Shown here: piece after piece, positions 4,029-27,755 of the stretch
How the letters are laid out: each line of letters starts with the position of its first letter
Numbering within the stretch: position 1 is the stretch's first letter
Origin: an uncultured Ruminococcus sp.
GTDB lineage: Bacteria; Bacillota; Clostridia; Oscillospirales; Ruminococcaceae
DNA length: 54,929 nt
Assembly: GCA_902788785.1 (NCBI GenBank)
Contig: CADALT010000017.1
Span: forward strand, 1 to 54,929
Direction: 5' to 3'
Notes under the pieces: generated by a model
What the model saw: the letters and a program-made list of their open reading frames with translations, nothing else
Databases searched by the model: none
What the model was told of the DNA's origin: nothing
Translations under genes and position numbers: made by a program

Positions 4029-6050
4029 TCAGTTTTTTGCTAATTTTATCATGTTCTGATTATTCTTGAAATAGGTGTTCAATTCAAAGCCCTGCTCTTC
4101 AAGTTTCTTCTCGATCTTTTTCAAAAGACCCCAGCGGCGGTGCTGTGTCAGAAGGAGTTTTCTGCACAGAAACGGTCTGTTGCCACGCACTATCACATAG
4201 CAGTCATCTCTGAAACCCGAATTTATCGAATCTATATCATCCATAGTCACAAGGTTTACTTCCGTAGGTGTAAAAGTGGTCGAAGGACCCGAGTTGCTGG
4301 ACGATGTGGATCTGACCTTGATGGTCTTTTTACCAAGCGCCTTCTGGATATACTCCTTATCCTCCGTATCGATATCGGGCACGCCCAGGAAAACCGTAGT
4401 ATCGCAGTTATCGGGGATTATGCCCCATTCATTCTCTTTATACATGGTTTTCAGCTGATCAAGACCCTGTATTACCACCGTACTGCCTATACGATATTTT
4501 CGGCTGGTAGCAAGTATTGTCAGGAAATTAGGTATCTCACCGATATTCTTGAACTCGTCAAGCAGGAAGTTTACGTGTATCGGCAGCGCAGGTTTCTTTG
4601 CATATTCATCACTGCCCCAGATATACATTTTATCGATATTATCTATGAGCATTTCCATCGCTTCTTTATTGACGCTGGATTTATACGGCTTTTTGCGCTT
4701 ATAAACGATATTATATATCTTTGTGCCATTGACATAATCTTCTTCAACTATATTACTGTGTGAAGATACATACGCCTTTTCTTCAGCACAAAATTCATCA
4801 TACAGAGCTCTTTTTTCATCAGACAGTCTTGAAAGCCTGTCAGCAAGTGCTCTCTCTTCCAGATCGAAAAGTGAACTGAACTCACCGTATACATCACTGT
4901 ATTTCTTATCACTCCGGGCTTTTTTCCTGAAGTCCTCTCTAGCCATCCTGTCATTTATGATGTTCTCATAAAACTCAACAGCTTCTTCCCTTGTTTCAAA
5001 ATAATCGAACATAGGAGTACCGACACGGTATCCAATATGGAATTTACCTCTGAGCTTTTGTTCACCCAGTTCATAAAGTCTGCCGTAAAGCTGAGAATAC
5101 AGCATAGCGATCAGAAAGTTGTACGCCTGATGCGACTGAGGGATACCCAAAAACAGGTAACTCTGCTGTGTAGCTATCGTATCTATGGATATATTCATCT
5201 GCGGATGTTCAGTATCAGTCCTGGTGACGTTATCAACTGCCTGTGTCGCAAATATCTGAAGATCTACCGCTGTTGTTATCAGGATAGTATTAGCTGTCTT
5301 TTGGGGAGCGATAAGGAAAGTGTCATAATATAGCTTGGTCTTATACTTTCCGCCTGCTGTCTTGTCGATCTCTTCGATCTCACCGTCAGGTCTGCGTCTG
5401 GCTATACCGACCTTGACGAACCATTCCTCCATTTCAAGTGTAAGAGGGCTCTTGGGTTCTTCTCCCGAATCCTCATCTCCGCCTATCTTTGCCATCTGGA
5501 CTTTATCGAGAACAGTCCTGAAACATTTATCCTTGATCTCAATCTCGTCATTTTCCAATATATAATAGATAAGCGCAGTCATGAAAGCTTTCTCCGATTT
5601 ATCCCAGAACGGGTCGCTGCCGCCTGCTTCCTTGCCTGCTTTAGCATTCTTCATGTAAAGATCGACAAGTACATCGACCTGTTTTTCAGAGATATTTCCG
5701 TCTGCATCGTAAACGTTCATCAGGGGATTATAGTGATTGCTCAATGTAAAATCAGATGCGTTAAAAAGATAAACATTATATCCTCTTGCCATCAGATATG
5801 GAGCAAAGCTGCTGAATATATCTCCCGATGGGTCTGTAACGACCACCGAACAATTCTCCTGAAGAATATTTGGTTTTATGTACTTAAAAGTTTTACCTGT
5901 ACCTGTACCGCCTATGACAAGTACATTGGCGGAACGATTGCATATCTCATTGTTAAGGCTAAGACTTACAGGATACTTACCCTTGAACATTGCGAACAGC
6001 ATATTATCATCAATATAATCAGGATCACTATACCTTTTGTCTGTTTTCAA
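4029..6050 (-). CDS. VirD4-type coupling protein, ATPase part
   Basis: This is the motor half of a type IV coupling protein, which recruits the relaxase-DNA complex and feeds it into the channel. Walker A GGTGTGKT is at residues 47-54 and Walker B LLDEF near residue 495, followed by the sensor-like segment typical of VirD4/TraG. The C-terminal tail is basic. Unlike usual VirD4 proteins it has no N-terminal membrane helices. Those are on the separate upstream gene, which ends with the sequence that normally precedes this domain. The start codon is TTG at 6050, with AAGGGGTGA six bases upstream overlapping the stop of the membrane part. This makes a genuine two-gene arrangement more likely than a sequencing break. 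Confidence 0.9.
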   Translation of the reverse strand: MKTDKRYSDPDYIDDNMLFAMFKGKYPVSLSLNNEICNRSANVLVIGGTGTGKTFKYIKPNILQENCSVVVTDPSGDIFSSFAPYLMARGYNVYLFNASDFTLSNHYNPLMNVYDADGNISEKQVDVLVDLYMKNAKAGKEAGGSDPFWDKSEKAFMTALIYYILENDEIEIKDKCFRTVLDKVQMAKIGGDEDSGEEPKSPLTLEMEEWFVKVGIARRRPDGEIEEIDKTAGGKYKTKLYYDTFLIAPQKTANTILITTAVDLQIFATQAVDNVTRTDTEHPQMNISIDTIATQQSYLFLGIPQSHQAYNFLIAMLYSQLYGRLYELGEQKLRGKFHIGYRVGTPMFDYFETREEAVEFYENIINDRMAREDFRKKARSDKKYSDVYGEFSSLFDLEERALADRLSRLSDEKRALYDEFCAEEKAYVSSHSNIVEEDYVNGTKIYNIVYKRKKPYKSSVNKEAMEMLIDNIDKMYIWGSDEYAKKPALPIHVNFLLDEFKNIGEIPNFLTILATSRKYRIGSTVVIQGLDQLKTMYKENEWGIIPDNCDTTVFLGVPDIDTEDKEYIQKALGKKTIKVRSTSSSNSGPSTTFTPTEVNLVTMDDIDSINSGFRDDCYVIVRGNRPFLCRKLLLTQHRRWGLLKKIEKKLEEQGFELNTYFKNNQNMIKLAKN

Positions 6051-6056
6051 CTGATC

Positions 6057-6890
6057 TCACCCCTTGATATCCATGTGTCTCTGCCTGTATTTTTTATAGT
6101 CACTCATTGTGGCAAATCTTGCATTACCGTGTTCAACGCCCTCTCTTCTTGCCTTTCTCTGTGCAGCACGGTCCCAGAACAGTAAAGCTGCTACAGCACA
6201 CACTGCAAAAGCGATACCAAATGAGGTGAAGAATATATCAACATAGAACGGAGATAAGCATATCGGCGTATCATTAAAGAACCACGAAAAGAAACACTCG
6301 AATGTATTTCTCACATTGCCGCTATTAGCAATGAAATATGAGTTTGCCATAATGCCGAAATACGAAGAGATCGCCAATGTAACGATAACCGATGCGATAA
6401 GCTTATTCCGTATAGAAGGCTCGGCATCTTCAACTTTGCCAAATGTCGCTTTTTCAAATGTTGCCTGATTTGTATATTTTCTGCGAGGTTCGCTAACGAT
6501 CACATCAGTATCATCATCGGTGAATTCTTTAAGTACCTCTCTGCAGCCGTCAATGATCTGATGGAGTCTGTTTATAGTGTCTTCACTTATCGTTATTTCG
6601 GCAGCAAATTCCTGATCTTCAGGAAGATCGGTCTCTTTGCCCAGTTCATGAAGTCTACCTATAAGCTCTTTTTCCTCCTCATCATCAAGCTCGGGTTCAT
6701 TAGGGTACTGACAGTCAAAGGGGTCGCACCAGAAAGGACTGCTCCCCAGAACTATCTCGCCCTGACGTATGCTGTCGATTATCTCATCATCACCATCAGG
6801 TTCCGGAGCGTAAGTATTATCCTCTGCCTTTTCAAGTTCTTCAAGATCATCTTCAAAGATATCGTCAAGCATCATGTTTCGGTTTACCAT
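6057..6890 (-). CDS. Coupling protein, membrane part (split VirD4 N-terminus)
   Basis: The 277-aa product has a long acidic N-terminal region (about residues 1-160) and two membrane helices at about 165-190 and 215-240. It ends with NARFATMSDYKKY and a short tail. That ending resembles the juxtamembrane GSARWAT-type segment that in ordinary VirD4 proteins lies between the helices and the nucleotide-binding domain. The next gene supplies the missing ATPase domain six bases downstream. The two products probably assemble at the membrane. ATG at 6890 has AAGGAG upstream. The acidic extension is unusual for this family and could contact another secretion component. Confidence 0.75.
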   Translation of the reverse strand: MVNRNMMLDDIFEDDLEELEKAEDNTYAPEPDGDDEIIDSIRQGEIVLGSSPFWCDPFDCQYPNEPELDDEEEKELIGRLHELGKETDLPEDQEFAAEITISEDTINRLHQIIDGCREVLKEFTDDDTDVIVSEPRRKYTNQATFEKATFGKVEDAEPSIRNKLIASVIVTLAISSYFGIMANSYFIANSGNVRNTFECFFSWFFNDTPICLSPFYVDIFFTSFGIAFAVCAVAALLFWDRAAQRKARREGVEHGNARFATMSDYKKYRQRHMDIKG

Positions 6891-7003
6891 TCTTCTTCCG
6901 CTCCTTATATTTTGGTATATTATATCATCACAGGCTAAAAGATGCGCCTGCTGCTTTCAGGTATCGGCATCATCTGCAATAATATGACCGCTCTATAATC
7001 ATT

Positions 7004-7024
7004 ATGTCGATGTTGCCCTACAAA
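7004..7024 (-). promoter_or_regulatory. Conserved 21-bp element box, copy 2
   Basis: On the minus strand this reads TTTGTAGGGCAACATCGACA plus T. It lies between the terminator of the 1,928-aa gene and the coupling-protein operon. As a promoter, TTGTAG is 17 bp from GATTAT. A TATAAT closer to the gene (near 6920) has no good -35. Confidence 0.6.
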
Positions 7025-7032
7025 CGACCATA

Positions 7033-7064
7033 ATAAAGGCAAGGTATTAAAACCCTGCCTTTAT
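7033..7064 (-). terminator. Terminator after the 1,928-aa gene
   Basis: The stem AAAGGCAAGG/CCCTGCCTTT (one mismatch) lies directly after the stop at 7071. The T tract on the minus strand is weak (TTTATTA), so some read-through into the coupling-protein genes is possible. Confidence 0.6.
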
Positions 7065-7070
7065 TTTATC

Positions 7071-10000
7071 TTACTCGAGATCGATTACCCTTGTTCTGGT
7101 CGTATCATTGATGAGCCATGAGTATATCGCAAACGATTTGCCCGAGAAATCGTTGCCTTCGTCTATACCATGCAGGTATATATTTCCAAGACCATCAACA
7201 GATTTATAATCGCTGCCGATACCCTTGTCGTTCATTGATGTAAGATCAACAACTACCGGTACATTAGGCTTTATGACCTGACCTGTGGAAAGTTTTATCT
7301 CTTCATCCAATATGCCTATGAATACACAGAATTTCTCACGCTGATTTTCTTTTATCTGATTTGCATAGAATCGTCTTTCACTCTCAGTACCGAAATTCTG
7401 TATCAGGCAGCAATATGAAGGCAGCACCACATCATTAAGATCATCAGTTTTAAGATGGACGATAGTATCACCCGGCAGCGCATTTGATGAATTGCTGCTG
7501 CTCTCAAAAGTATAATTTTTAGATGCATCTTCGCCTCTTTCAATGATAGTTTTGCCGTTATGATGCCTTATATAGTTTACAAATGCTTTTTCATCACCTG
7601 CGGTACAGCATCCTGCATAAGTCACCGTACGCTCGATGCCGTCAGGATCGAGCATCGACACTGTCAGGCCCTGACACGGCTCATCAAGGAAATTATGTTT
7701 GTGAAGGTCGTTAAAGTGTCCTTTACCGACAAAGCCCAAAGTCTCCCTGACTGCTTTTTCTCTTTCCGAAGAGAAATTACCGGCATACTTTGTTTTAAGA
7801 GCATCTACTACCTTATTTATATCAGCCGTACTTAAAGGCGCTTGTCCTGCACCCTTATAACCGCATCCGTAAGGGATGATCATTTCATGTGTCACCTTTT
7901 TGCCGTCCAGGGTCTCGACTTCTGTCTCACCCTTTTCACCCAATGAACCATGGCAAATCTCCTGTGGGATATCAAAGCCGTAGGTATCATACCAGTCAGA
8001 ACAGAATTTCATCAGTGCCAGCGTCATATTATCACTGTTCCAGCCTTCATATTCCCTGATATTACAATCATGCGTCGGAAATACATTATCGCCCTTTAGG
8101 ATGACACAGTCAACATCGAATATATCTCTGAGTGTATGCCATGCTGTAGAACCACGCAAATCATATCCCGATTTCCATTCTTCACCAACTACTTTGACAT
8201 TCAGACCCTGCATACCCGATGCTGAACCCTGAGGATCAAAAAGCGGAGATCTCGCACCTCCCGATGAGGCGATCGTCTTTAGATTATCATATTGAACATT
8301 CTCGGTAATGACCTTTCCTCTTATCTCATCATAGCCATTGGCTTTCATGTCAAAATTATCTGCAAGCGGCTTACCGGAATTATCGTCCTGCATATCTATC
8401 ATATCTATCTGCTCATTTGTCATTGAATAAGTAACTCCATGTGAATGAACACAGATATGTCCGCCGCAATAAGAGAATGTATGACCTGAGCAGTCTCTTT
8501 TGAACGCATTTTCCTTTTGCTCATAGAGACATACCTTAGCATTGAGCACTCGGTACATTTTCTTATGTTTTGGAACTATACGAGAAATTTCGTCCACATC
8601 TATAGTGTATTCGCCAGCGGGCAATCCCGTATTCCAATATTCTCTTTCTCCATCAGGATGAACAATGAAGAGGTGGACAATATCTCCGGCTATGTATCCT
8701 TCATTGTCCTTTTCAAAGTCTATAGAATTCAAGCCAACATCTACACACTTTTTCGCATCGTAGTGGTTTCCATCATTACCGGTACCATGAACTATAAGCA
8801 TGTATGCCATTCCTGTGCCGCCTTCTGTGCTCAGAACATTACTAAATCTGTCATAATGAACTTGTTCTTTTTCGGTGCCGCCTTCCAAAGGTCTGTCAGG
8901 ATCTTCCCAAGTCTCTATCGTCGCATCGGAATAGTCTACCTTGAATTCGGGTTTCTCGTAGCTTGTCTTTCTGAACAGATCTCTGTTACTGTCAAGGAAA
9001 TACTTTGTCTCGGGAAGTGATGCATTGTCATATTCAGCCCTCAAAGCAGCTTCGACATTTGCCTTGGCAGCCTCCTCACTGTCATACCAGCCATCGGAAC
9101 CTTCGTGATACTCTAATGTATCTGTATTAAAATCCCAATCATTTACATTGCCCGAGTACCAGCCGTCACCGCCCGTACTGTTCGCATAGACAACCTTAGA
9201 ATCACTCACCTCATCTGTCTTGAACTGTTTCCAGCAGTGATAATTCTTTGTCTGACTTTCTATGAATTTAAAGGTATCCTCATCAGAACCCATATTTTCA
9301 CGCAGGCATACTTCCTCATTTTTATCTGCAAGATTGTCCATAGTAACGGTAACTTCATACTTACCTGTATCCACGGGGAATTTTATACCTGTAGCGTCAT
9401 CGCCATTCTTCCAGAAAAATGGTGAGATCCTGGGAGTATCGGCATTTTTGTTCCAGAAAATCTCAAATTTGTTTTTTACAGGATTTTTACAATAGCCGAG
9501 AATACTTGCGTTCTCTTGATCGATATTACTCGTTATATCTATTATTCCTGTATCTGTATTTATCATTATCGGCTCATTCTTATAGTATTTTACTTCAAAG
9601 GCGATCTCTTCCTGATGCGAATCGCTAAATAATGTGCTTGCATATTTACAAACAGTTGAGTAGCCAACGTGCTTTTGACAGAATTTCCTCATAGGCTCAT
9701 ACTTTGCTGATGTAAACGGAGCTTTTACGGTGTTCCATAGCCACTTAAAGAAACCTACTGTGTTGTCTGCCAAATTTTCCCATTTAAGTTGTGCCGGAGT
9801 TTTACCGAGTATGCTCTGCTCTCCCTTATCGAGATCTGCAATAGATTCATCAAGATCCATGCCGTACATAACATCGACCATGCAGATTATATCCTTTATA
9901 TTTGATGTATGACCGCTCTCTATAGATGAATAGCCGTATGGGTTGGATCTTACACTTCCATCCGGAGCTATAACTTTATTATCGATCTTATCGAATGCAT

Positions 10001-12857
10001 TATTATTTGCACCGAATGAGGTTATCTGTTCACCGTCATAATGCCATACTGTTTTCTCTTCACCATTCTCGTCCTTTTTCTTTTCTTTCTCCGTTATGAG
10101 ATGTGTACTGTCGGTAAGAACATCAGCATTATACGAATGAGGTATTGTAATTTTAGTACCCGAATATTTTTCATAATCATAAGCAGATCTGGTCTCGGGC
10201 TTATTATCCTTGTAAAAAGGATTTATAGCTATATCGGAATAATAACCGTTTTTGTCTTTATCCAGAAGAACAAGATCGTCGAAATTCGATATGTAGTCCT
10301 GAAATTCCTGATAGTCAGCACCATAACGATTTCTAACCCTGTCTACAGAGATAGCATTATAATCCTGTACATCTTCCTCGACCCATTCCTGTTCCATTGG
10401 AGAAAGAACTTCATAATATAGTTTCCATCCTATTGTGTCTTGATATGTTTTGGGCTTAGATAGACCTACCATATCAAGAAACGAAGAAATACACTGAACA
10501 GCAGCTATACAAACAACCATAGCTGCTGTAAGCATAAACATCACAGCAACAGTAACAATAACTACCTTTTTTCCAACAGCACTCAAGACATTCTTGAAAT
10601 TTATCAGGAATCCGCCTAACTTCGTGCCTGCTACCTTAAATAGGACCTTATTTTTTAATGCTCTGTATCTGCCTAAAATACTGCGTTGTCTTCTGGCTGC
10701 TTTCTTAACTGCTTTAGCCTGTGCTTTTTGTGCTTTTGCAGCATGCTTTGCAAGTTTTTGAGAGGAAACCTGCTTAGGCGGTTTTTTAGCCTTTGGCTTC
10801 TTAGGAGTCTTTGCTTTTGCAGTCTTAGGTTTAAGTACGCCTTTGCCATATTTAGATGATGACTTGAGTTTTGCTCCTTTGCGAAGTTTGACATATGTAA
10901 CGCCCTGACGCAGATAAATTATACTCTGCGTTGTATACTCATAAGCTTTTTTAACCTTAGTATACGCATTATACAGCTCAGCAAATGTACCTGAATCATC
11001 GGCTTTAAGCAACAGATTCAAACCTATACGCTTAAGATCTTTAAGATCTTCTCTTAATATTTGTGTTCGATTGAGTTTCATCAAAAACTGCTGTGTGTGT
11101 TTAGATATACCAAACCTTTTTAGCTGAGCAGAAGACAACTTTCCTATTTTATCCGGATCGATCGTCCACTTACCATTCTTTTTAGAGAAAATATCAATGC
11201 CTTCTTTTTGAGCCCTCATAATAAAGGCTTTATTTATCTCTAAAAGTTTATCAGCATTGAAGTTTGCTCTGGTCACATTTACGCCAAGATCCTTTTGTAT
11301 GCTTATCATATTCTGCAAAGCTGAATACTCGGAAGGATTAAGCGTACACATCTTACTTTTAAGAAGCGAATCTAAAGATGTCTTTTCCGCAGCTGAAAGA
11401 TTTTTGCCGAATTTGAGAGAATATGCTTCTGCTGCCGTTGACAGATGATATTTCTCCATTGCATTCAGCTTTATCTCACCTAAGCCTGCTGCTTTTGCAT
11501 TGGATAGTTTATCAAGTACACCTATCTGCTCTCGGCTAAGACCAAGTTCGCCGCTCTTTTTAAGTATATTTTTTAAAGCATCACCGTTTTCGCCAAACTT
11601 AGTTACATCTAACATCGAAGTTTTGTATGTAAAAGGGCTATTCGATATATGCCAGTCCGTGTTAAGTTCCGATGCAATATCATTAAGCTCATGCAGGGCA
11701 AAATCAACTCTTACACAAGTCGTTGTTCCACTGCTGTTGATCTCATTTCTCTGAGTCTTCTCCACATCAGAAAGCGAGATCTGAGATTTTATCTCATTCC
11801 AATCGGCTTTATTGAAACCTTGCACATCATTATCCTGCTTTATCTTATCGAGCTTTTTGAACAAAACCTCTCTCTCTGAAAAATCAAGATTATTAACATG
11901 ACCACTGTTGTAAAATGAATTTATTGCCTGAGTTTCTTTATATGTAAATTTTGCACGATCAGTATTATACAATGAATACATCATATCGCCCTGAGTTTTA
12001 CTGATCGCCATATCCTTGTAGAAACTCTCAGCTTTAAAATTATCTGTAACAGCATAATCCTGCTTATATATATTCTTTATTATAGCCTCTGAATTTGAAA
12101 CGATAGGCTGTATCTTTGTTTCATGATCGAAAGATGACTTATTTAAGATATCCTCGGCTGTATTTATGCGTTCCTCATGCCTTTTCAGAATGCTTTCTCT
12201 TGTTGCGTCATCAGTAACCAGTTTACCATCTATGACGACGGTCTCATTATTTATTACAACGGCGCTTTTTGCCATACCTGAAGCGGGTCTGTACTTTTCC
12301 AGCTCAGTGCCTATTTTGACCATATTATTTATAACTTTACCAAGTGCATCCATCTCATCGGTCAAATAGTTATAGAGATCTCCATCACCGCTCTCATTGC
12401 CATGTTCATCAAGATACTCGGTCTTGAAAGGTTTTTCGGTGCCAATATCCATTCTCGAACCTGCATCACGGATAACATCTGCTGCAGAAACAGATGACAT
12501 ACTTGCCCCTGCCATTTTCTTAGCAAGTTCACTGTCGGCATTAAGATCGGAATAATTTATCTCACGGGGGATCTCGATCAGGATCTGACCCATGACTTTT
12601 CTCGACGATCCTACAGCATCTATTCCCTGATCTTTCATGTCCTGCAAAAATCTTGAAGCATCTTCCTTATTTGAAAAAGCTATACGTTCATAATCAGAAC
12701 TATTATAGTCAGACTGAGAATGGAGCTTGCTGAACATTTCATTTACATTATTTTCATAAACTCTGTTAGCTTCATTCATTCGTTTTGCTATAGCATGATC
12801 AATGGCTGAATCTAAAGATCTGACACCATTCTCTTTATACGAACCGAAATTAGCCAT
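7071..12857 (-). CDS. Giant membrane-spanning conjugation protein, 1,928 aa
   Basis: The product has a long helical N-terminal half (about residues 1-680) and a very Lys/Ala/Pro-rich linker (about 680-740). One strong membrane helix follows (about 763-790), then a long polar C-terminal half probably outside the membrane. The region after the helix resembles the large mobile-element proteins found near VirB4 in clostridial elements. Near residues 1697-1880 a weak NlpC/P60-like pattern can be traced: a helix with GFVGKG, then GCC near 1749, then ALPGD near 1792. The usual DCSGF signature is absent, so peptidase activity is doubtful. ATG 12857 is chosen over GTG 12863 because GGAG is at good distance only from the ATG. 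The gene ends at a terminator. Confidence 0.75.
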   Translation of the reverse strand: MANFGSYKENGVRSLDSAIDHAIAKRMNEANRVYENNVNEMFSKLHSQSDYNSSDYERIAFSNKEDASRFLQDMKDQGIDAVGSSRKVMGQILIEIPREINYSDLNADSELAKKMAGASMSSVSAADVIRDAGSRMDIGTEKPFKTEYLDEHGNESGDGDLYNYLTDEMDALGKVINNMVKIGTELEKYRPASGMAKSAVVINNETVVIDGKLVTDDATRESILKRHEERINTAEDILNKSSFDHETKIQPIVSNSEAIIKNIYKQDYAVTDNFKAESFYKDMAISKTQGDMMYSLYNTDRAKFTYKETQAINSFYNSGHVNNLDFSEREVLFKKLDKIKQDNDVQGFNKADWNEIKSQISLSDVEKTQRNEINSSGTTTCVRVDFALHELNDIASELNTDWHISNSPFTYKTSMLDVTKFGENGDALKNILKKSGELGLSREQIGVLDKLSNAKAAGLGEIKLNAMEKYHLSTAAEAYSLKFGKNLSAAEKTSLDSLLKSKMCTLNPSEYSALQNMISIQKDLGVNVTRANFNADKLLEINKAFIMRAQKEGIDIFSKKNGKWTIDPDKIGKLSSAQLKRFGISKHTQQFLMKLNRTQILREDLKDLKRIGLNLLLKADDSGTFAELYNAYTKVKKAYEYTTQSIIYLRQGVTYVKLRKGAKLKSSSKYGKGVLKPKTAKAKTPKKPKAKKPPKQVSSQKLAKHAAKAQKAQAKAVKKAARRQRSILGRYRALKNKVLFKVAGTKLGGFLINFKNVLSAVGKKVVIVTVAVMFMLTAAMVVCIAAVQCISSFLDMVGLSKPKTYQDTIGWKLYYEVLSPMEQEWVEEDVQDYNAISVDRVRNRYGADYQEFQDYISNFDDLVLLDKDKNGYYSDIAINPFYKDNKPETRSAYDYEKYSGTKITIPHSYNADVLTDSTHLITEKEKKKDENGEEKTVWHYDGEQITSFGANNNAFDKIDNKVIAPDGSVRSNPYGYSSIESGHTSNIKDIICMVDVMYGMDLDESIADLDKGEQSILGKTPAQLKWENLADNTVGFFKWLWNTVKAPFTSAKYEPMRKFCQKHVGYSTVCKYASTLFSDSHQEEIAFEVKYYKNEPIMINTDTGIIDITSNIDQENASILGYCKNPVKNKFEIFWNKNADTPRISPFFWKNGDDATGIKFPVDTGKYEVTVTMDNLADKNEEVCLRENMGSDEDTFKFIESQTKNYHCWKQFKTDEVSDSKVVYANSTGGDGWYSGNVNDWDFNTDTLEYHEGSDGWYDSEEAAKANVEAALRAEYDNASLPETKYFLDSNRDLFRKTSYEKPEFKVDYSDATIETWEDPDRPLEGGTEKEQVHYDRFSNVLSTEGGTGMAYMLIVHGTGNDGNHYDAKKCVDVGLNSIDFEKDNEGYIAGDIVHLFIVHPDGEREYWNTGLPAGEYTIDVDEISRIVPKHKKMYRVLNAKVCLYEQKENAFKRDCSGHTFSYCGGHICVHSHGVTYSMTNEQIDMIDMQDDNSGKPLADNFDMKANGYDEIRGKVITENVQYDNLKTIASSGGARSPLFDPQGSASGMQGLNVKVVGEEWKSGYDLRGSTAWHTLRDIFDVDCVILKGDNVFPTHDCNIREYEGWNSDNMTLALMKFCSDWYDTYGFDIPQEICHGSLGEKGETEVETLDGKKVTHEMIIPYGCGYKGAGQAPLSTADINKVVDALKTKYAGNFSSEREKAVRETLGFVGKGHFNDLHKHNFLDEPCQGLTVSMLDPDGIERTVTYAGCCTAGDEKAFVNYIRHHNGKTIIERGEDASKNYTFESSSNSSNALPGDTIVHLKTDDLNDVVLPSYCCLIQNFGTESERRFYANQIKENQREKFCVFIGILDEEIKLSTGQVIKPNVPVVVDLTSMNDKGIGSDYKSVDGLGNIYLHGIDEGNDFSGKSFAIYSWLINDTTRTRVIDLE

Positions 12858-12896
12858 TTTCACCAGCTCCTTTTTTTGTCATCATTCCAACTTCTC

Positions 12897-13544
12897 TTAC
12901 ATATAGTCTGTAAACTCATCATTACTGAGTATTTCTTCTGATACTTCGGCATCATCATAAGAATAATCATCATCGTCATATTCACCGTAAGCATCTTCCA
13001 ATCTTGAAGCCTGAGCTTCCTTGTATAGTTCTTCCTCATACTCTATATCAACAAGAGATACCTCTTCTATACCGAACTCGAAACGGTTATTTGCAAAGGC
13101 AAGTCCCACAAAAATGATCTCACCATCGTCCTCAGCCGCAAAAATAGGGTTTATTATGCTGACGCAGTAAGATCTGCTGTTTTCAAGTTCAGGCTTTATA
13201 AGGTCGATAGTCAAAAAGTAATCGGCAGGCTGACCTTTAATATTTTGTTCGGAATTATGCTTGACCATAGCATCCCAAAGAATCCTTATCTTTTTCAGAT
13301 CAAAAAAATTACCGTCAACTTCGTGGATATGGAAATATACATATCCATCCTCCATGTTGACGTATATCTCATTGACAGCTGTTTCGACAGCCTGTGTAGT
13401 CAGTACCAGTTCTCTGCCTGTACCGTCACTTGCTTCCATACCTTGTCTGAGAGTTGCCACCACGCCGCATTTCTGCACCTTTTCAACGCAGGTCTTCAGC
13501 GTCTCCATTGTCTCATCCGAATTAAGATTTATAGAACTTATCAT
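12897..13544 (-). CDS. Hypothetical acidic protein, 215 aa, conjugative element
   Basis: I do not recognise this protein. It is soluble, with no signal peptide or membrane segment, and ends in a strongly acidic Asp/Tyr-rich tail (about residues 180-215). The ATG at 13544 follows TAGGAGGATATCCAG: the stop codon of the preceding gene forms part of its ribosome binding site, so translation is coupled to the degenerate-GGDEF gene. The giant membrane protein follows 39 bp downstream. An acidic tail next to a Lys-rich linker in that protein suggests a possible pairing, but this is only inference. Confidence 0.75.
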   Translation of the reverse strand: MISSINLNSDETMETLKTCVEKVQKCGVVATLRQGMEASDGTGRELVLTTQAVETAVNEIYVNMEDGYVYFHIHEVDGNFFDLKKIRILWDAMVKHNSEQNIKGQPADYFLTIDLIKPELENSRSYCVSIINPIFAAEDDGEIIFVGLAFANNRFEFGIEEVSLVDIEYEEELYKEAQASRLEDAYGEYDDDDYSYDDAEVSEEILSNDEFTDYM

Positions 13545-13556
13545 CTGGATATCCTC

Positions 13557-14591
13557 CTATTGTGCTATCAGATCGATAAAATCTTTATCCTGATATACAC
13601 CATACAACGTATCTCCGTCTTTATATATACCCGTTCGGCAAAGCTCAGCCTTTTCATCCTTACTGTCCCAGAGGACATAGTCATATAAGCCGTTGATATT
13701 CTCTCTTATGGGGAATAATTCTTTGCCGTCCGACACACGTTTGCCAAAGTTTGCAGGGATACATACACCTTTATGAGTATATATCTTATGTTCAAATTCA
13801 CCCTCGGAAGCCTTGAAGAATGCCACATTCAGCAGTCCGTCACGACCAAAACGGCAGCTTACAGAAAACTGAACGCCGCCTACTCCGAAAGTTACATTTT
13901 TACCGCTGTACAAACGATATTCAACTGCATCATCTACCACTACTATAGTACTCAGCGACGCCAACGGTTTAAGATATTCCGTTGGGAAAACATATACCTT
14001 GACCATCTGGAATTTAGGTTTGATGGTAGTCAGTTCTATAACAGTGTACCACATGGTTTTCCTGAACTTACGCTTGTTTGTTTCCTGAAGTTCATAAGGA
14101 GTATTCTGAACTACGACACCGTTGCGTACTCGTTCAAATTTCTTTTTAGCCTTATGACTGAACATTTTTTCAATACCCTGCTGTATCTGTTCCTGCGACT
14201 TTTCCTTGGTAAATACATCTTCTATCAAACCGTAATACACATCATACTCATCCGAAGGCTCATCAAGTATGGCTGTCATCTTTTTTATACTCTTCTCAGG
14301 GCACAGAAAATTAAATTTCTCGCCCGAGATATGAAATACCAATATGCCGTTCGATACGACAAGATATATAAATCTCCTCAGAAAATAATCTCCGTAATCA
14401 TGACTCTCTCTATTGGCTTTACGAAGATCGACATTCACACATACAAGGTGATACGTATCTTTATCACTCAAACCATCCATAAAATCAAGAAAGGCTTTTC
14501 TGTTTGGAAAGCCATGTTTAGTGGTATAATAGTCTTTTTTTCTTACAGTGACTTTCTCATCCGAGAAATAATCGCTATACACACTCGTCAC
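13557..14591 (-). CDS. Protein with degenerate GGDEF-like domain
   Basis: Residues about 25-125 follow the outline of a GGDEF (diguanylate cyclase) domain: GFPNRKAF at 27-34 where GLPNRRAF is usual, VDLRKANRESHDYG from residue 54 where the metal- and GTP-binding helix lies, and SGEKF at 89-93 in place of GGDEF. Loss of both glycine/aspartate signature positions argues against cyclase activity. It may bind nucleotide or act as a structural or signalling scaffold. The C-terminal two thirds is unrecognised and rich in beta-type sequence. The gene overlaps the upstream sigma-like gene by 17 bp and is coupled to the acidic protein downstream. The GGDEF relation is my pattern reading, not a computed match. 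Confidence 0.65.
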   Translation of the reverse strand: MTSVYSDYFSDEKVTVRKKDYYTTKHGFPNRKAFLDFMDGLSDKDTYHLVCVNVDLRKANRESHDYGDYFLRRFIYLVVSNGILVFHISGEKFNFLCPEKSIKKMTAILDEPSDEYDVYYGLIEDVFTKEKSQEQIQQGIEKMFSHKAKKKFERVRNGVVVQNTPYELQETNKRKFRKTMWYTVIELTTIKPKFQMVKVYVFPTEYLKPLASLSTIVVVDDAVEYRLYSGKNVTFGVGGVQFSVSCRFGRDGLLNVAFFKASEGEFEHKIYTHKGVCIPANFGKRVSDGKELFPIRENINGLYDYVLWDSKDEKAELCRTGIYKDGDTLYGVYQDKDFIDLIAQ

Positions 14592-15003
14592 CTACCCACT
14601 CAACACCCGATACTAATCTAATATTATCGGTCTTTTCAGACAATATTGTCCTGACATAAACGATGCTGTAATTGGCCTCATTTATAAGCTCTGCGATCTT
14701 ATATGCATTTTCGGGAGTAGGATCTATGCCGTGCTTATCGCATATATTGATTATGCGGTTATAGTGCGTGAGTGTATCCTTTTTTAAGCCCTTGCTTTTT
14801 GCGGACTCACGGAATATTATCTTCTTGATAATAGTGTACAGCAGACATTTGTTTTTTTCTGTATATATTTTCTCAGCAAGAGTCAGGTCTTTATTAAGGT
14901 ACATAAGTACCTCCTGAGAAATATCATCTTTGTCTCCAAGTGATGAGCTGATGCGGTAGAGCCTTACAAGGTCTCTGACTGTACTGTTCAGCCATTCCCA
15001 CAT
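14575..15003 (-). CDS. Small sigma-factor-like protein, 142 aa
   Basis: The sequence resembles parts of an RNA polymerase sigma factor. An N-terminal helix carries GDKDDISQEVLMYL, like the DLVQEV segment of region 2. Residues about 80-122 read like a region 3 helix-turn-helix (G-I-D-P-T-P-E-N-A-Y-K-I-A-E-L, then V-R-T-I-L). There is no clear region 4 for -35 recognition, and the protein is short. It could be an alternative sigma factor, an anti-activator, or an unrelated helical protein. It overlaps the 60-aa gene upstream by 16 bp and the degenerate-GGDEF gene downstream by 17 bp, so the three are tightly co-expressed. Confidence 0.5.
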   Translation of the reverse strand: MWEWLNSTVRDLVRLYRISSSLGDKDDISQEVLMYLNKDLTLAEKIYTEKNKCLLYTIIKKIIFRESAKSKGLKKDTLTHYNRIINICDKHGIDPTPENAYKIAELINEANYSIVYVRTILSEKTDNIRLVSGVEWVGDECV

Positions 15004-15170
15004 AATACCTCTCCTTTCACTTTCTTTATTCCTTTTGTTTCTTTACACATCAGTCTTATTATCTCGGCTGCCTCTTCATGAGTGTTGCCAAGACAAAAAT
15101 TATCTTTACTTATGTAGTACGGTTCGTCTTTCAGAAATTTTTCCATATCTTCCATGTTTTTAAAATTCAC
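14988..15170 (-). CDS. Hypothetical small protein, 60 aa
   Basis: This is the first gene of the block that ends with the giant membrane protein. It is charged, with two predicted helices and no membrane segment. The start is GTG at 15170, with GAGGG eight bases upstream. It overlaps the next gene by 16 bp, which supports it as a real gene despite its size. No family is recognised. Confidence 0.6.
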   Translation of the reverse strand: MNFKNMEDMEKFLKDEPYYISKDNFCLGNTHEEAAEIIRLMCKETKGIKKVKGEVLCGNG

Positions 15171-15403
15171 TTTGATGTCCCTCTTTCTAAAATCTATATA
15201 TTACAGCAAAGCGTTTGCAGGATCACCGACAAACGCAATGCAGTAATGCTCTAAAGCAGTTACACATAACGGTCGTTAACCACTAGCATATAGTGTAACA
15301 CTTTGTAGGTTTTAACAAGGGGACATTATGACAAAACGTCCTGCATTTGTTAAATAATTCATCATATTTAATTACTTTTATCTTATTAAATTATTGTATT
15401 ATT
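15171..15403. other. Non-coding region rich in dyads, upstream of the 60-aa gene
   Basis: Between the VirB4 stop and the 60-aa gene lie several inverted repeats: GCGTTTG/CAAACGC (about 15209-15234), TAACG-GT-CGTTA (about 15267-15278), CACTA-gcata-TAGTG and AGTGT-a-ACACT (about 15280-15302). On the minus strand TTGTTA (15313-15318) and CACTAT or TACACT form a candidate promoter. The TACACTAT core is shared with the VirB4 promoter at 18104. There is no clear terminator for VirB4. A transfer origin or a regulated promoter are both possible. Confidence 0.5.
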
Positions 15404-18007
15404 CTAATTCTCATCTTCTTCATCGAGCACGGGAATATCTATATCATCTGCAAAATGCTGCTTATTAAACTCTACCCTTTCCTTTTCAAGAACAGCTTTT
15501 CTCTTCTTTGTTCTTTCAACGTCATTCGGGTTAGTGGACATAAGACCATACAGCTTTGAGTCTGTCGGAAGTCTGTAGTTCATAGGTATGAGCACACGGT
15601 TGTTATATATAAGACCGATACCCGAATCTTTATCCTTGATATAATCAATAAGAGAATCCGCAACGTTCCAAAGACGCTGAACAGTTTCCTGACCGACAGG
15701 CGACTGTTTTAGGATTATAAAGAAGCCTGTGTTATTGAACATACCTGTTCCCTGGGAAGTTCTGAGCAGGTCTGCGATATCCTGTGTGATACCTGTCATG
15801 ATACCGCCGTACTTACGTACACGCTTGAAGTACGCAAGAATGGTAGATGCAGAACTCTCTGTCTTGAAGAACAGATGGAACTCATCGAGGTATACCCATA
15901 TGGATTTGTTTCTGCCATATTTGGAATTCAATTCCTTGTTCTTGACGATACGAGTCCAGATGTGTGCAAGACAAACCTTCATCGCCATCTCTGTCATTTT
16001 TTCGGGCAGATAAAGCAGGTTAAATATAGTAAGTCTGCTTTCGCTCTGAATATTGGTATGGTGTGCAAAGAGGTTATAGTTACCGATACAATAAGGTTCG
16101 ATAGCCTGTGCGATCTTGTTCGACTCGGCTGTCTGGTCTGCAAGCAGCTGCTCATAGAAATCAACAAGTGTGGGACATATCTCGGGATAAATATTTGTAT
16201 TATCGCCGTCCTCATGTCTTCTTGTCATCTCTTCTATATAAGGCTCGTACATTTTGTTGCAGGCTCTGTGGATCGCATTGACCTCAAAGGGATTACATTC
16301 ACGGTTTCTTCCGAGTATCGACTCTACCAGACCTACCATATAGTCGCACTTGTCTGTAAGAGGTGTAGCCCTCTCATCCTCCCACTCCATGGACATATCA
16401 CATGGATTTATGTGGAAATCCGACTTAGCTTCGAGGTCAATGATCGTACCACCCAGAGACTCGCCTATGAGTCTGTACTCGTTCTCGGGGTCAAGGATTA
16501 TCATATCGTCTTCACTGTCAAGCAGATTAGGTATGATCTCACCCTTTGTTATGAAGGACTTACCGGAACCTGACTGACCAACGATAAGACCATTTGCCAG
16601 CCTTGAACGCTTACGGTCATACATAGCCATATTTTTCGACTGTGCATTGATACCGTAGAAGTGACCTTTCTTATCATTAAGTTCCTGTATGTTGAAGGGG
16701 AACAGTGCGCAGGCATCATCACCCGTAAGCATACGGTCTATGATTATTTTACTGTTACCCACAAGCAGTGCGGTATTAAGACCTCTTACCTGCTGACCGA
16801 ACAGGATATTCGGATTGAGCGAATAGTCCGTACACTTAGACTTGTACAGTGCCTCGATATTGACCATTTCCTCCTCGGACTCACCTATGAGAGTTGTCAC
16901 AAGGGTCGCATAGAATATCTTTTTACCTTCCTGTACAACGTCATTACGCAGCTGCTTAGACTCATTCTGAGCCTGTACCAGGTCATCATTGATAAGGTCT
17001 GGAGAATAGCCGGCCTTATACGCTTGCTGGGTCGCCTTGATAACATCAGCCTTTATAGATGTATCCTGCATCTTAACAAGCATAAGAGCTTTCTTTCTGG
17101 GAACAGCCTTAAGCTGAACGACAGTTACCATCTCGTAAGGAAGATTAGTTACACTGGTCAGGAATGAAGTATCCAGCGAGGAAGGCAAATTATTGAAGCT
17201 GTAGGACTTAGCAAATCTGTTCTCGGACAGCTGGAGCATATTTTTTGTCTTAGTGATCGTCTGCGGAGCGATAAGGTCCTTGACAGATGTACCGGACTTT
17301 TTTAGGGCATTAACGTTCAGATTTAAAGATACTTCGCCTTCATCATCGACATTATGTTCAAAAAATCTGTCATACTCAACATCAAAAGGTACGCCGTCAG
17401 AACCGTTAAGTATCTCATGCATAACTCTCAATCTTTCGATGGCATCGAGCTGAGTTACACCTACACGGTTTATCTGCTTAACAGATTCCTGCAAAGATAT
17501 ATCAGCAGCACTGAAAACAGTCTGAGCATCTTTAAGGGAAGACTCTTTTACATTGAGCATTATGTACTTCTCTTTACTGATATCGTTTCTGCCTTCGGTT
17601 ATCTTAGCATCGATTATCCGGTTATAGTCAATTCGCCACTCATCAAGTCCATCGCCCTTAGGCTTAATGTGGTAGTTATCGGCAAGCTGCTCCATGGTAT
17701 TGCGCTTATTTACAATGATGATCGAAACATCCACGTTATCAGGAAAACGGTTGATGAACTTGCTGTAGTTTTCAAGTATATCCCACTGTTTATGATCTGA
17801 TTCGGTGATAAAATTAGCGTCTTCCACTTTATAGATCTTTGAATAGTTTCCGCCCTTGGTGAGGATAATACCATCCTCGGTTATCTTATCAAAATCAAGC
17901 ACTTCCTGAACAGTAGTTGCCATCTTTTTCACCTTGGGGGGCGTTTTACCTTTTTTGGCTGCCTGATCTTTTTTTCCCTTTCCAAGCAACTTTTCAAATG
18001 AATTCAT
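15404..18007 (-). CDS. VirB4-type ATPase of the type IV secretion system
   Basis: This 867-aa cytoplasmic ATPase is the main motor of the conjugation channel. The N-terminal half carries the VirB4/TraC-type membrane-associated region. Walker A GQSGSGKS is near residue 476, followed by the IILDPENEY segment typical of VirB4. Walker B is WVYLDEFH near residue 706. A Gln-containing motif (GITQDI) follows, and the C-terminal tail is charged. Length and motifs are normal for the family. ATG 18007 has AAAGGAG upstream. A promoter (TTGTTA, 17 bp, TACACT) lies about 100 bp upstream and the conserved 21-bp box about 160 bp upstream. Confidence 0.95.
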   Translation of the reverse strand: MNSFEKLLGKGKKDQAAKKGKTPPKVKKMATTVQEVLDFDKITEDGIILTKGGNYSKIYKVEDANFITESDHKQWDILENYSKFINRFPDNVDVSIIIVNKRNTMEQLADNYHIKPKGDGLDEWRIDYNRIIDAKITEGRNDISKEKYIMLNVKESSLKDAQTVFSAADISLQESVKQINRVGVTQLDAIERLRVMHEILNGSDGVPFDVEYDRFFEHNVDDEGEVSLNLNVNALKKSGTSVKDLIAPQTITKTKNMLQLSENRFAKSYSFNNLPSSLDTSFLTSVTNLPYEMVTVVQLKAVPRKKALMLVKMQDTSIKADVIKATQQAYKAGYSPDLINDDLVQAQNESKQLRNDVVQEGKKIFYATLVTTLIGESEEEMVNIEALYKSKCTDYSLNPNILFGQQVRGLNTALLVGNSKIIIDRMLTGDDACALFPFNIQELNDKKGHFYGINAQSKNMAMYDRKRSRLANGLIVGQSGSGKSFITKGEIIPNLLDSEDDMIILDPENEYRLIGESLGGTIIDLEAKSDFHINPCDMSMEWEDERATPLTDKCDYMVGLVESILGRNRECNPFEVNAIHRACNKMYEPYIEEMTRRHEDGDNTNIYPEICPTLVDFYEQLLADQTAESNKIAQAIEPYCIGNYNLFAHHTNIQSESRLTIFNLLYLPEKMTEMAMKVCLAHIWTRIVKNKELNSKYGRNKSIWVYLDEFHLFFKTESSASTILAYFKRVRKYGGIMTGITQDIADLLRTSQGTGMFNNTGFFIILKQSPVGQETVQRLWNVADSLIDYIKDKDSGIGLIYNNRVLIPMNYRLPTDSKLYGLMSTNPNDVERTKKRKAVLEKERVEFNKQHFADDIDIPVLDEEDEN

Positions 18008-26436: not shown

Positions 26437-26450
26437 ATGACATTTGTCAT
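26437..26450. promoter_or_regulatory. TGACA..TGTCA dyad between divergent promoters
   Basis: ATGACATTTGTCAT is a 14-bp dyad. It has the same half-sites as the two operators at 25031 and 25067 but a spacer one base shorter. It lies between the minus promoter at 26386-26414 and the plus promoter at 26458-26486. Confidence 0.55.
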
Positions 26451-26457
26451 GACACGA

Positions 26458-26486
26458 TTGACGTTTCGTTTCAGATATGGTATCAT
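26458..26486 (+). promoter_or_regulatory. Promoter reading into the group I intron core
   Basis: TTGACG and TATCAT are spaced by 17 bp. The expected transcript starts near 26492, about 35 bases before the 5' strand of the P3 pairing of the intron core. Confidence 0.65.
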
Positions 26487-26490
26487 ATTT

Positions 26491-26780
26491 ATATTACCTG
26501 AAAGGAGCAGAATATGACTTACGAAGAAGCAATGCATGATATACCAATGGGCAATACACAGCCTATTAAATAATGTGTATGAAAGTATCCGCAGCCAAAC
26601 CGACTACGCTTCGGCGGTGTTATATAATTCATAAGCAACTTTAAGTCGGGAGGTTCAGAGACTATAATTGCTTCCTAGAAAACAGGCGATATTGTTTTCA
26701 GGTATTGGATAGTCCAAAATGTTGCGTCGGATAGGGCGGCGTATAATTGCAACACGGTGGGTCGTGCCGTGGTGAGGAAA
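26491..26780 (+). ncRNA. Group I intron catalytic core
   Basis: Conserved group I elements occur in order. Q-like TATCCGCAGCCAAACCG starts at 26586. R-like GGTTCAGAGACTATA starts at 26652, and S-like TTGGATAGTCC starts at 26705. P7 pairs GACTAT with ATAGTC. P3 is an exact 8-bp pairing of 26526-26533 (GAAGCAAT) with 26667-26674 (ATTGCTTC). P5 pairs ATACACA (26554-26560) with TGTGTAT (26574-26580). P6 pairs ACCGACT with AGTCGG, P8 is GAAAACA/TGTTTTC, and P9-type hairpins are TGTTGC/GCAACA and CACGG/CCGTG. P4 is weak: the P element reads CAATGGGCAA where TGCGGG would be expected. No homing endonuclease is present and the splice sites are not resolved, so the core may be decaying. Confidence 0.8.
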
Positions 26781-26820
26781 ACGACGTTATTTCTAAAATA
26801 TGAACAGCCACGATACTACC

Positions 26821-26849
26821 TTGACGACAAATCAAGAACGTGGTATAAT
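26821..26849 (+). promoter_or_regulatory. Promoter of the 205-aa gene
   Basis: TTGACG and TATAAT are spaced by 17 bp, 23 bp before the ATG. Confidence 0.8.
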
Positions 26850-27489: not shown

Positions 27490-27525
27490 CCTCACAATAC
27501 ATTAGATATTATATAATGGCGTCAA

Positions 27526-27541
27526 AGAAGTATTTACTTCT
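27526..27541. repeat. Short perfect palindrome
   Basis: AGAAGTATTTACTTCT has 7-bp arms with a 2-nt centre. No T tract follows, so it is not a typical terminator. It lies between the 205-aa gene and the DUF1653 remnant. Confidence 0.4.
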
Positions 27542-27603
27542 AGTGGTTTTCATGCATTGAGTCAAGATGAACTGCTGGAGCAATTGAACGACTTTAACGC
27601 AAG

Positions 27604-27755
27604 TGATCGGTATTGCAAAACACTCCGAGACTCTTGAACCTATGGTGGTTTACCGTGCACTTTACGGCGAACACGGTATCTGGGTGCGCCCTGCATCCAT
27701 GTGGAGCGAGAGTGTGGGGAACGTATTGAGGTTTACAAAGATTAACGATGAATAA
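27604..27755 (+). pseudogene. DUF1653 gene remnant (3' part)
   Basis: The reading frame VIGIAKHSETLEPMVVYRAL, then YGEHGIWVRPASMW and RFTKINDE, ends in TAA. This is the usual core and end of a DUF1653 protein (normally about 70 aa or a domain). The upstream half is missing; the preceding sequence is in another frame and looks like part of something else (ALSQDELLEQLNDFN). The stop overlaps the ATG of the esterase gene, which may once have been translationally coupled to it. Confidence 0.65.

Follow-up and report, generated by a model that had tools for sequence, protein, structure and literature searches.

The core of a group I intron needs both the P3 and the P4 helix. Among the described members of this class are the IStrons, which combine such an intron with an IS element of the IS200/IS605 or IS607 type; they are found in protein genes that have no relation to each other, and ORFs are lost from some of the copies (PMC4227781). 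We describe here a locus in a contig of an uncultured Ruminococcus species (CADALT010000017.1; the whole stretch of 54,929 nucleotides that was analysed is called "the window" below) that is very probably a 5'-truncated relic of a group I intron whose cargo is not an endonuclease; this intron would once have interrupted a DUF1653 gene and then lost its front in one deletion. The first-pass annotation of this DNA had offered a self-splicing intron, a leader ribozyme or a decaying fossil as explanations of a group I-like core, and the last of these three appears to be the right one, the front parts being missing. The features of the locus are collected in Table 1.

Table 1. Features of the split DUF1653 gene and the intron remnant (positions in the window).
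Feature	Position	Strand	Remarks
DUF1653 gene promoter TTGACG-17-TATCAT, TG before second hexamer	26458–26486	+	Consensus match only
5' exon remnant, first 13 DUF1653 codons (MTYEEAMHDIPMG)	26514–26552	+	Genus orthologues start MT[YF].[EQ]A...I..G and continue uninterrupted
Deletion junction, exon fused to intron at P5	26547–26556	+	Placed within ~10 nt
P5 hairpin	26554–26560 / 26574–26580	+	7 bp, perfect; letters re-checked
Group I 3' half-core (P4', P6 with long insert, P7, P3', P8, P7')	26586–26716	+	Model R1
P4 3' strand, TCCGCA	26588–26593	+	Orphan, no 5' partner
P6 and extension	26600–26605 / 26644–26649	+	6 bp, perfect; covaries in A1 and A3
P7, encloses P3' and P8	26660–26665 / 26709–26714	+	6 bp, perfect
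P3 3' strand	26667–26674	+	Orphan; its 8-nt complement at 26526–26533 is exon
P8	26678–26684 / 26693–26699	+	7 bp, perfect
P9 stem	26721–26725 / 26749–26753	+	5 bp, perfect
Cargo gene promoter TTGACG-17-TATAAT, TG before second hexamer	26821–26849	+	11 of 12 consensus matches
Cargo ORF, 205 aa	26872–27489	+	One N-terminal membrane segment; between P9 and 3' exon
Intron 3' end	27490–27599	+	Putative 3' splice site after G27599; position from orthologue alignment only
3' exon, rest of DUF1653 gene to stop codon	27600–27755	+	PF07866, E 1.1e-16; 100% self match 27603–27752

A single DUF1653 gene starts in the upstream frame, at the ATG at 26514, and finishes in another frame 0.9 kb downstream; the 50 codons that lead up to the stop codon at 27753–27755 encode the C-terminus of the DUF1653 protein, so that an exon ORF does continue beyond the core, where none had been seen before. 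DUF1653 matches are present in 22 of 41 genomes (own genome included), and of 19 orthologue loci in other genomes 18 could be read (the remaining one, L310, was not recovered by the pattern); all 18 have a single uninterrupted frame through the missing stretch. Seven of them begin with MT[YF] and align to the window frame at 26514, and the rest have their start a few residues further on. About ten residues present in all 18 orthologues are missing from the window, which resumes at the CAA codon at 27600, which indicates an insertion and a deletion between codon 13 and approximately codon 24 of one gene. The first 20 nucleotides of the window coding sequence are identical in the intronless orthologue L314 of the same genus. 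The orthologues diverge from the window at the deletion junction, and homology to the phage locus L279 (see below) starts at 26577. At the other end G27599, the putative terminal G, agrees with the exon alignment. The intron-derived sequence runs to about 27599, well past the end at 26780 that had been given for it. The own genome has one DUF1653 match, that of the window, and one R1 match (R1 is explained below), the single-copy finding being limited by the state of this genome, a draft of 67 contigs and 90.57% completeness.

The promoter that had been noted upstream of the core does exist, but together with its ribosome-binding site it belongs to the split DUF1653 gene. The adjacent TGACA..TGTCA dyad also exists; it is a perfect dyad, ATGACATTTGTCAT, at 26437–26450, upstream of a flavodoxin-like ORF that diverges from it on the minus strand, reading downward from 26443 or 26366. 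The genome has ATGACANNTGTCAT in exact form at just one further place (C16:29683–29696), and the same dyad lies between ATPase-like and kinase-like frames in L003. It looks like an operator of the neighbouring genes and not a part of the intron.

Between the two exons a group I intron core is present, as judged from its letters, with class membership by descent: P7, the G site, is found in order with J6/7 and J8/7, as are P6, P8 and P9. The order of elements reported in the first-pass annotation is upheld by the perfect pairing of P5, P6, P7, P8 and P9 and by the R1 match; the ends that it gave are not. R1 is a covariance model of the 3' half-core made from 31 other loci, with the window and L279 left out, and its score of 50.3 bits (E 4.1e-10) at 26586–26716 exceeds chance expectation and is flattered to some degree, as the training loci were gathered by motifs read from the window and the score partly rewards those motifs; no other place in the window matches up to E 10. 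P6 and P8 covary in the 31-sequence alignment, where 98.6% of cells are paired and 79 are changed on both sides, a covariation that none of 500 shuffles reached, and P7 is invariant there. In a five-sequence half-core alignment that includes the window the pairs hold in 95.4% of cells and ten pairs are changed on both sides, figures that lean towards the model because this alignment was fitted to it. As a control on the motifs, 18 of 78 viral loci picked by two of the window's motifs were scanned, and 13 of these 18 carry an RF00028 gathering match at the motif place.

The Rfam check that had been suggested, an empty outcome of which was to count as a refutation, gave no match: RF00028 finds no group I intron in the region at the gathering threshold (the window is below that score, 50 bits) nor at E up to 10, and in the whole own genome it gives only one weak place elsewhere (16 bits, E 0.165). 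This negative carries little weight because RF00028 is insensitive here, only eight of the 16 R1 training loci scanned reaching the gathering score, and it illustrates that a group I core can be present yet invisible to Rfam once its 5' half is deleted. Folding lends the core no thermodynamic support, as 26491–26800 has z = -0.65, with 24 of 100 shuffles folding at least as well, and the unconstrained fold is without P7, which appears only when forced, at a cost of about 2 kcal/mol (-59.6 vs -61.5).

Missing from the locus are P1 and P2, the 5' strand of both P3 and P4, and some ten codons of the exon. The P4 that had been called damaged has indeed no 5' partner, exon letters standing in the place of that strand, and there are no intron letters between codon 13 and P5 that could supply a P1 with internal guide sequence and a 5' splice site. 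In L279, intron-like sequence of about 230 nt precedes P4', and the window has none of it. The "perfect 8-bp P3" of the earlier reading is a real match of 26526–26533 with 26667–26674, but only one of its strands is intron, the 5' strand being DUF1653 coding sequence. Shuffling the exon stretch yields eight Watson-Crick pairs to the P3' zone in 151 of 20000 cases, and random 41-mers of the window yield them in 34 of 20000; among eight orthologue loci checked the octamer is found only in L314. By these sequence comparisons the helix is an accident of exon codons, though an uncommon one, because intronless L314 has the same octamer in its coding sequence. A perfect helix read by eye can thus be an exon-codon accident, and an intronless orthologue settles the matter.

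This bears directly on whether the locus could be an active, divergent self-splicing intron that uses the 26526–26533 P3 and a weakened P4. Intact P5 through P8 and the presence of the 8-bp P3 complement speak for it, but the 5' strand of P3 and the bases at the P4 place are DUF1653 codons, host coding sequence lies where P1, P2 and both 5' strands should be, the splice site would need to precede the start codon, and the product would still miss about ten codons; we regard an active intron as highly improbable. The position of the element between a promoter and a gene would suit a leader ribozyme with a regulatory role, comparable to the allosteric ribozyme that responds to c-di-GMP in Clostridioides difficile. 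The upstream element is however a coding exon, its promoter and ribosome-binding site belong to the split DUF1653 gene, a separate promoter precedes the downstream ORF, and there is no riboswitch match, which leaves a leader ribozyme barely credible.

The truncated relic that we favour would have arisen as follows. An intron with a cargo gene in its 3' (P9) region, inferred to come from a phage, would once have interrupted the DUF1653 gene near codon 22, and this ancestor presumably spliced itself out. One deletion, which began near codon 13 of the exon and reached as far as P5 of the intron (both points approximate), would then have taken about ten exon codons, the 5' splice site, P1 with the internal guide sequence, P2 and the 5' strands of P3 and P4, and would have left the cargo gene untouched. 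With its front lost, the remnant should be unable to fold a group I core or to choose a 5' splice site, and as a consequence the host gene would be split and the intron a relic. The deletion could be an assembly fault, in which case the genome would hold a complete intron from which the contig lost about 0.2 kb; the genome is a draft and the join of exon to P5, with its short shared letters, could be a mis-join, but nothing else odd was seen at the junction, and such a chimera seems very unlikely.

The cargo gene has its own predicted promoter and can, by its sequence, still be expressed, although the 55-kb window has nine promoters with TG of at least this strength, which are no rarity here. 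Its protein has no homing-endonuclease match, the first-pass annotation having also noted no such enzyme at the locus, and no convincing family match; no relative other than itself was found in 29 genus and 396 family genomes, viral contigs, phages and plasmids. A PADLOC JetB match (E 0.0019, 16 bits) is too weak to use. The predicted structure has a mean pLDDT of 44 and was set aside. The remnant might be that of an IStron whose transposase genes were lost, in keeping with the range of insertion sites and the loss of ORFs noted above for that group (PMC4227781), but the cargo ORF has no TnpA or TnpB match in Pfam, PHROGs or NCBIfam up to E 1, the cargo of L279 is also not a transposase, and the own genome has no second copy; an IStron origin is very doubtful. 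The unusual cargo may mark group I introns that carry phage accessory genes.

A DNA search of 297 family genomes found no second intron, and the short partial matches in 51 of them are mostly to the promoter and start region of the cargo gene. Pattern GGTTCAGAGACTATAATTGCTT, allowing up to two mismatches, is present in one of 396 family genomes, the own one. R1 matches five genomes among 295 relatives at E up to 0.1: the own genome, G082 (two places), G115 and, weakly, G476 and G005. The places in G082 (L332 and L336) and in G115 (L333) are group I introns in genomes of the same family, of which L332 and L333 reach the RF00028 gathering score and L336 is absent from that list. No DNA relatives were found in phages or plasmids, and no intact copy of the intron inside a DUF1653 gene was found. 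The first ORF after P7 (at least 90 aa, within 1200 nt, same strand) in 31 viral motif cases matches LAGLIDADG_1 in one and LAGLIDADG_3 in another, and the remaining first ORFs are for the most part ordinary genes of phages or hosts. The intron motif is also found in 54 genome contigs (L217–L270), many of them Patescibacteria MAGs, in which tRNA-like 3' halves are seen by eye after P9, and these are probably tRNA introns.

The nearest of 90 motif loci is L279 (IMGVR_UViG_2857971645_000001), with a score of 82 (the next has 48; 1000 shuffles that keep the motifs reach 50 at most). The insertion in L279 splits a tape-measure gene, PHROG 4211 profile positions 577–946 lying before it and 958–1448 after it, and no Rfam group I match was found in this locus up to E 10. 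Its P5 is in the same place as that of the window with different letters, and by eye a stem-loop with GGATAG resembles the window P9. The inserted DNA (6900–9600) has ORFs of 221, 132 and 200 aa on both strands, none with an endonuclease match. Within the 13.3 kb of L279 just three promoters combine TG with no more than one mismatch, at 9194–9166, 8158–8130 and 6965–6993, each of them ahead of one of these cargo ORFs; by eye a short ORF precedes the 221-aa ORF behind the same promoter. The 200-aa protein is weakly like the window cargo at the N-terminus (BLASTP E 0.018), a likeness reached in none of 2000 shuffles with the membrane segment and in 14 of 2000 without it. In viral contigs the 200-aa protein finds only itself, and in 247 relatives two weak, apparently unrelated places.

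A search with the L279 tail protein (90 records) led to phage record MT837120.1, in which the tail gene stops at the same region as in L279 and is followed by an R1 match of 37.1 bits (E 2.6e-7; 26 kb). Its P7 is GAGCAT/GTGCTC, changed on both sides, and a 12-of-12 promoter without TG precedes a 112-aa ORF; the contig ends before a 3' exon, and there is no Rfam match up to E 1. The 112-aa ORF is coiled-coil-like, and a 307-aa ORF lies on the other strand (both in 5070–7667). In MT835469.1 the tail gene is interrupted at the same place, between profile positions 929 and 963, and the inserted DNA has ORFs of 114, 247 (DUF3800), 304 and 118 aa. The R1 score there is just 10 bits (E 0.024 when 901 nt are searched with filters off), with no match at E up to 1 in a wider search, and the single such promoter of this record does not precede any of the cargo ORFs listed. 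In 8900–16760 of this record the tape-measure gene is broken by several insertions; one ORF matches a treble-clef zinc finger (DUF4379, E 1.3e-13), and a DUF3800 ORF is at one site. MT837120.1 looks like L279, and MT835469.1 is suggestive of a third phage record of this kind.

With L279, MT837120.1 and MT835469.1 as support, we tentatively propose, as a reading somewhat short of even likelihood, that an intron lineage homed in the tape-measure genes of gut phages and prophages provides a neutral landing pad for "moron"-like genes, each equipped with a strong promoter, that replace the homing endonuclease; the tail gene would work via splicing, the cargo would be expressed independently, and the intron could move together with its cargo into a chromosomal gene, of which the window would be a dead example. 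A limited literature search found nothing that joins tape measure protein gene, intron and self-splicing, and we do not claim that tail-gene introns are unreported. From these relatives one may ask whether accessory genes of phages, equipped with promoters, travel in group I introns as splice-neutral carriers; if they do, the known cargo of these introns would extend beyond homing endonucleases and transposases.

Compared with known systems, the locus shares with the RF00028 group I introns the order P5-P4'-P6-P7-P3'-P8-P7'-P9, the TCCGCAGCCAA and GGTTCAGAGACTATAAT motifs and a P7 of GACTAT/ATAGTC, and differs in being unmatched by that model, in lacking the 5' part from P1 to P3 and in its long P6 insert. 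With the L279 intron it shares letters of J5/4, P4', the start of P6, P3' and J8/7, GTCGGATAG in P9, the lack of a homing endonuclease and a cargo after P9 with a near-consensus promoter, whereas the L279 intron interrupts a tail gene of a phage, has retained its 5' part and carries three cargo ORFs on both strands. The IStrons CdISt1 and BcISt1 (PMC4227781) are likewise group I introns with non-endonuclease ORFs in varied Firmicutes protein genes, but the present intron carries no ORF of transposase type. The group I introns of phages and bacteria that encode homing endonucleases (PMC3984707) belong to the same ribozyme class; the window intron differs from them in a cargo that is not an endonuclease and in its host gene, DUF1653.
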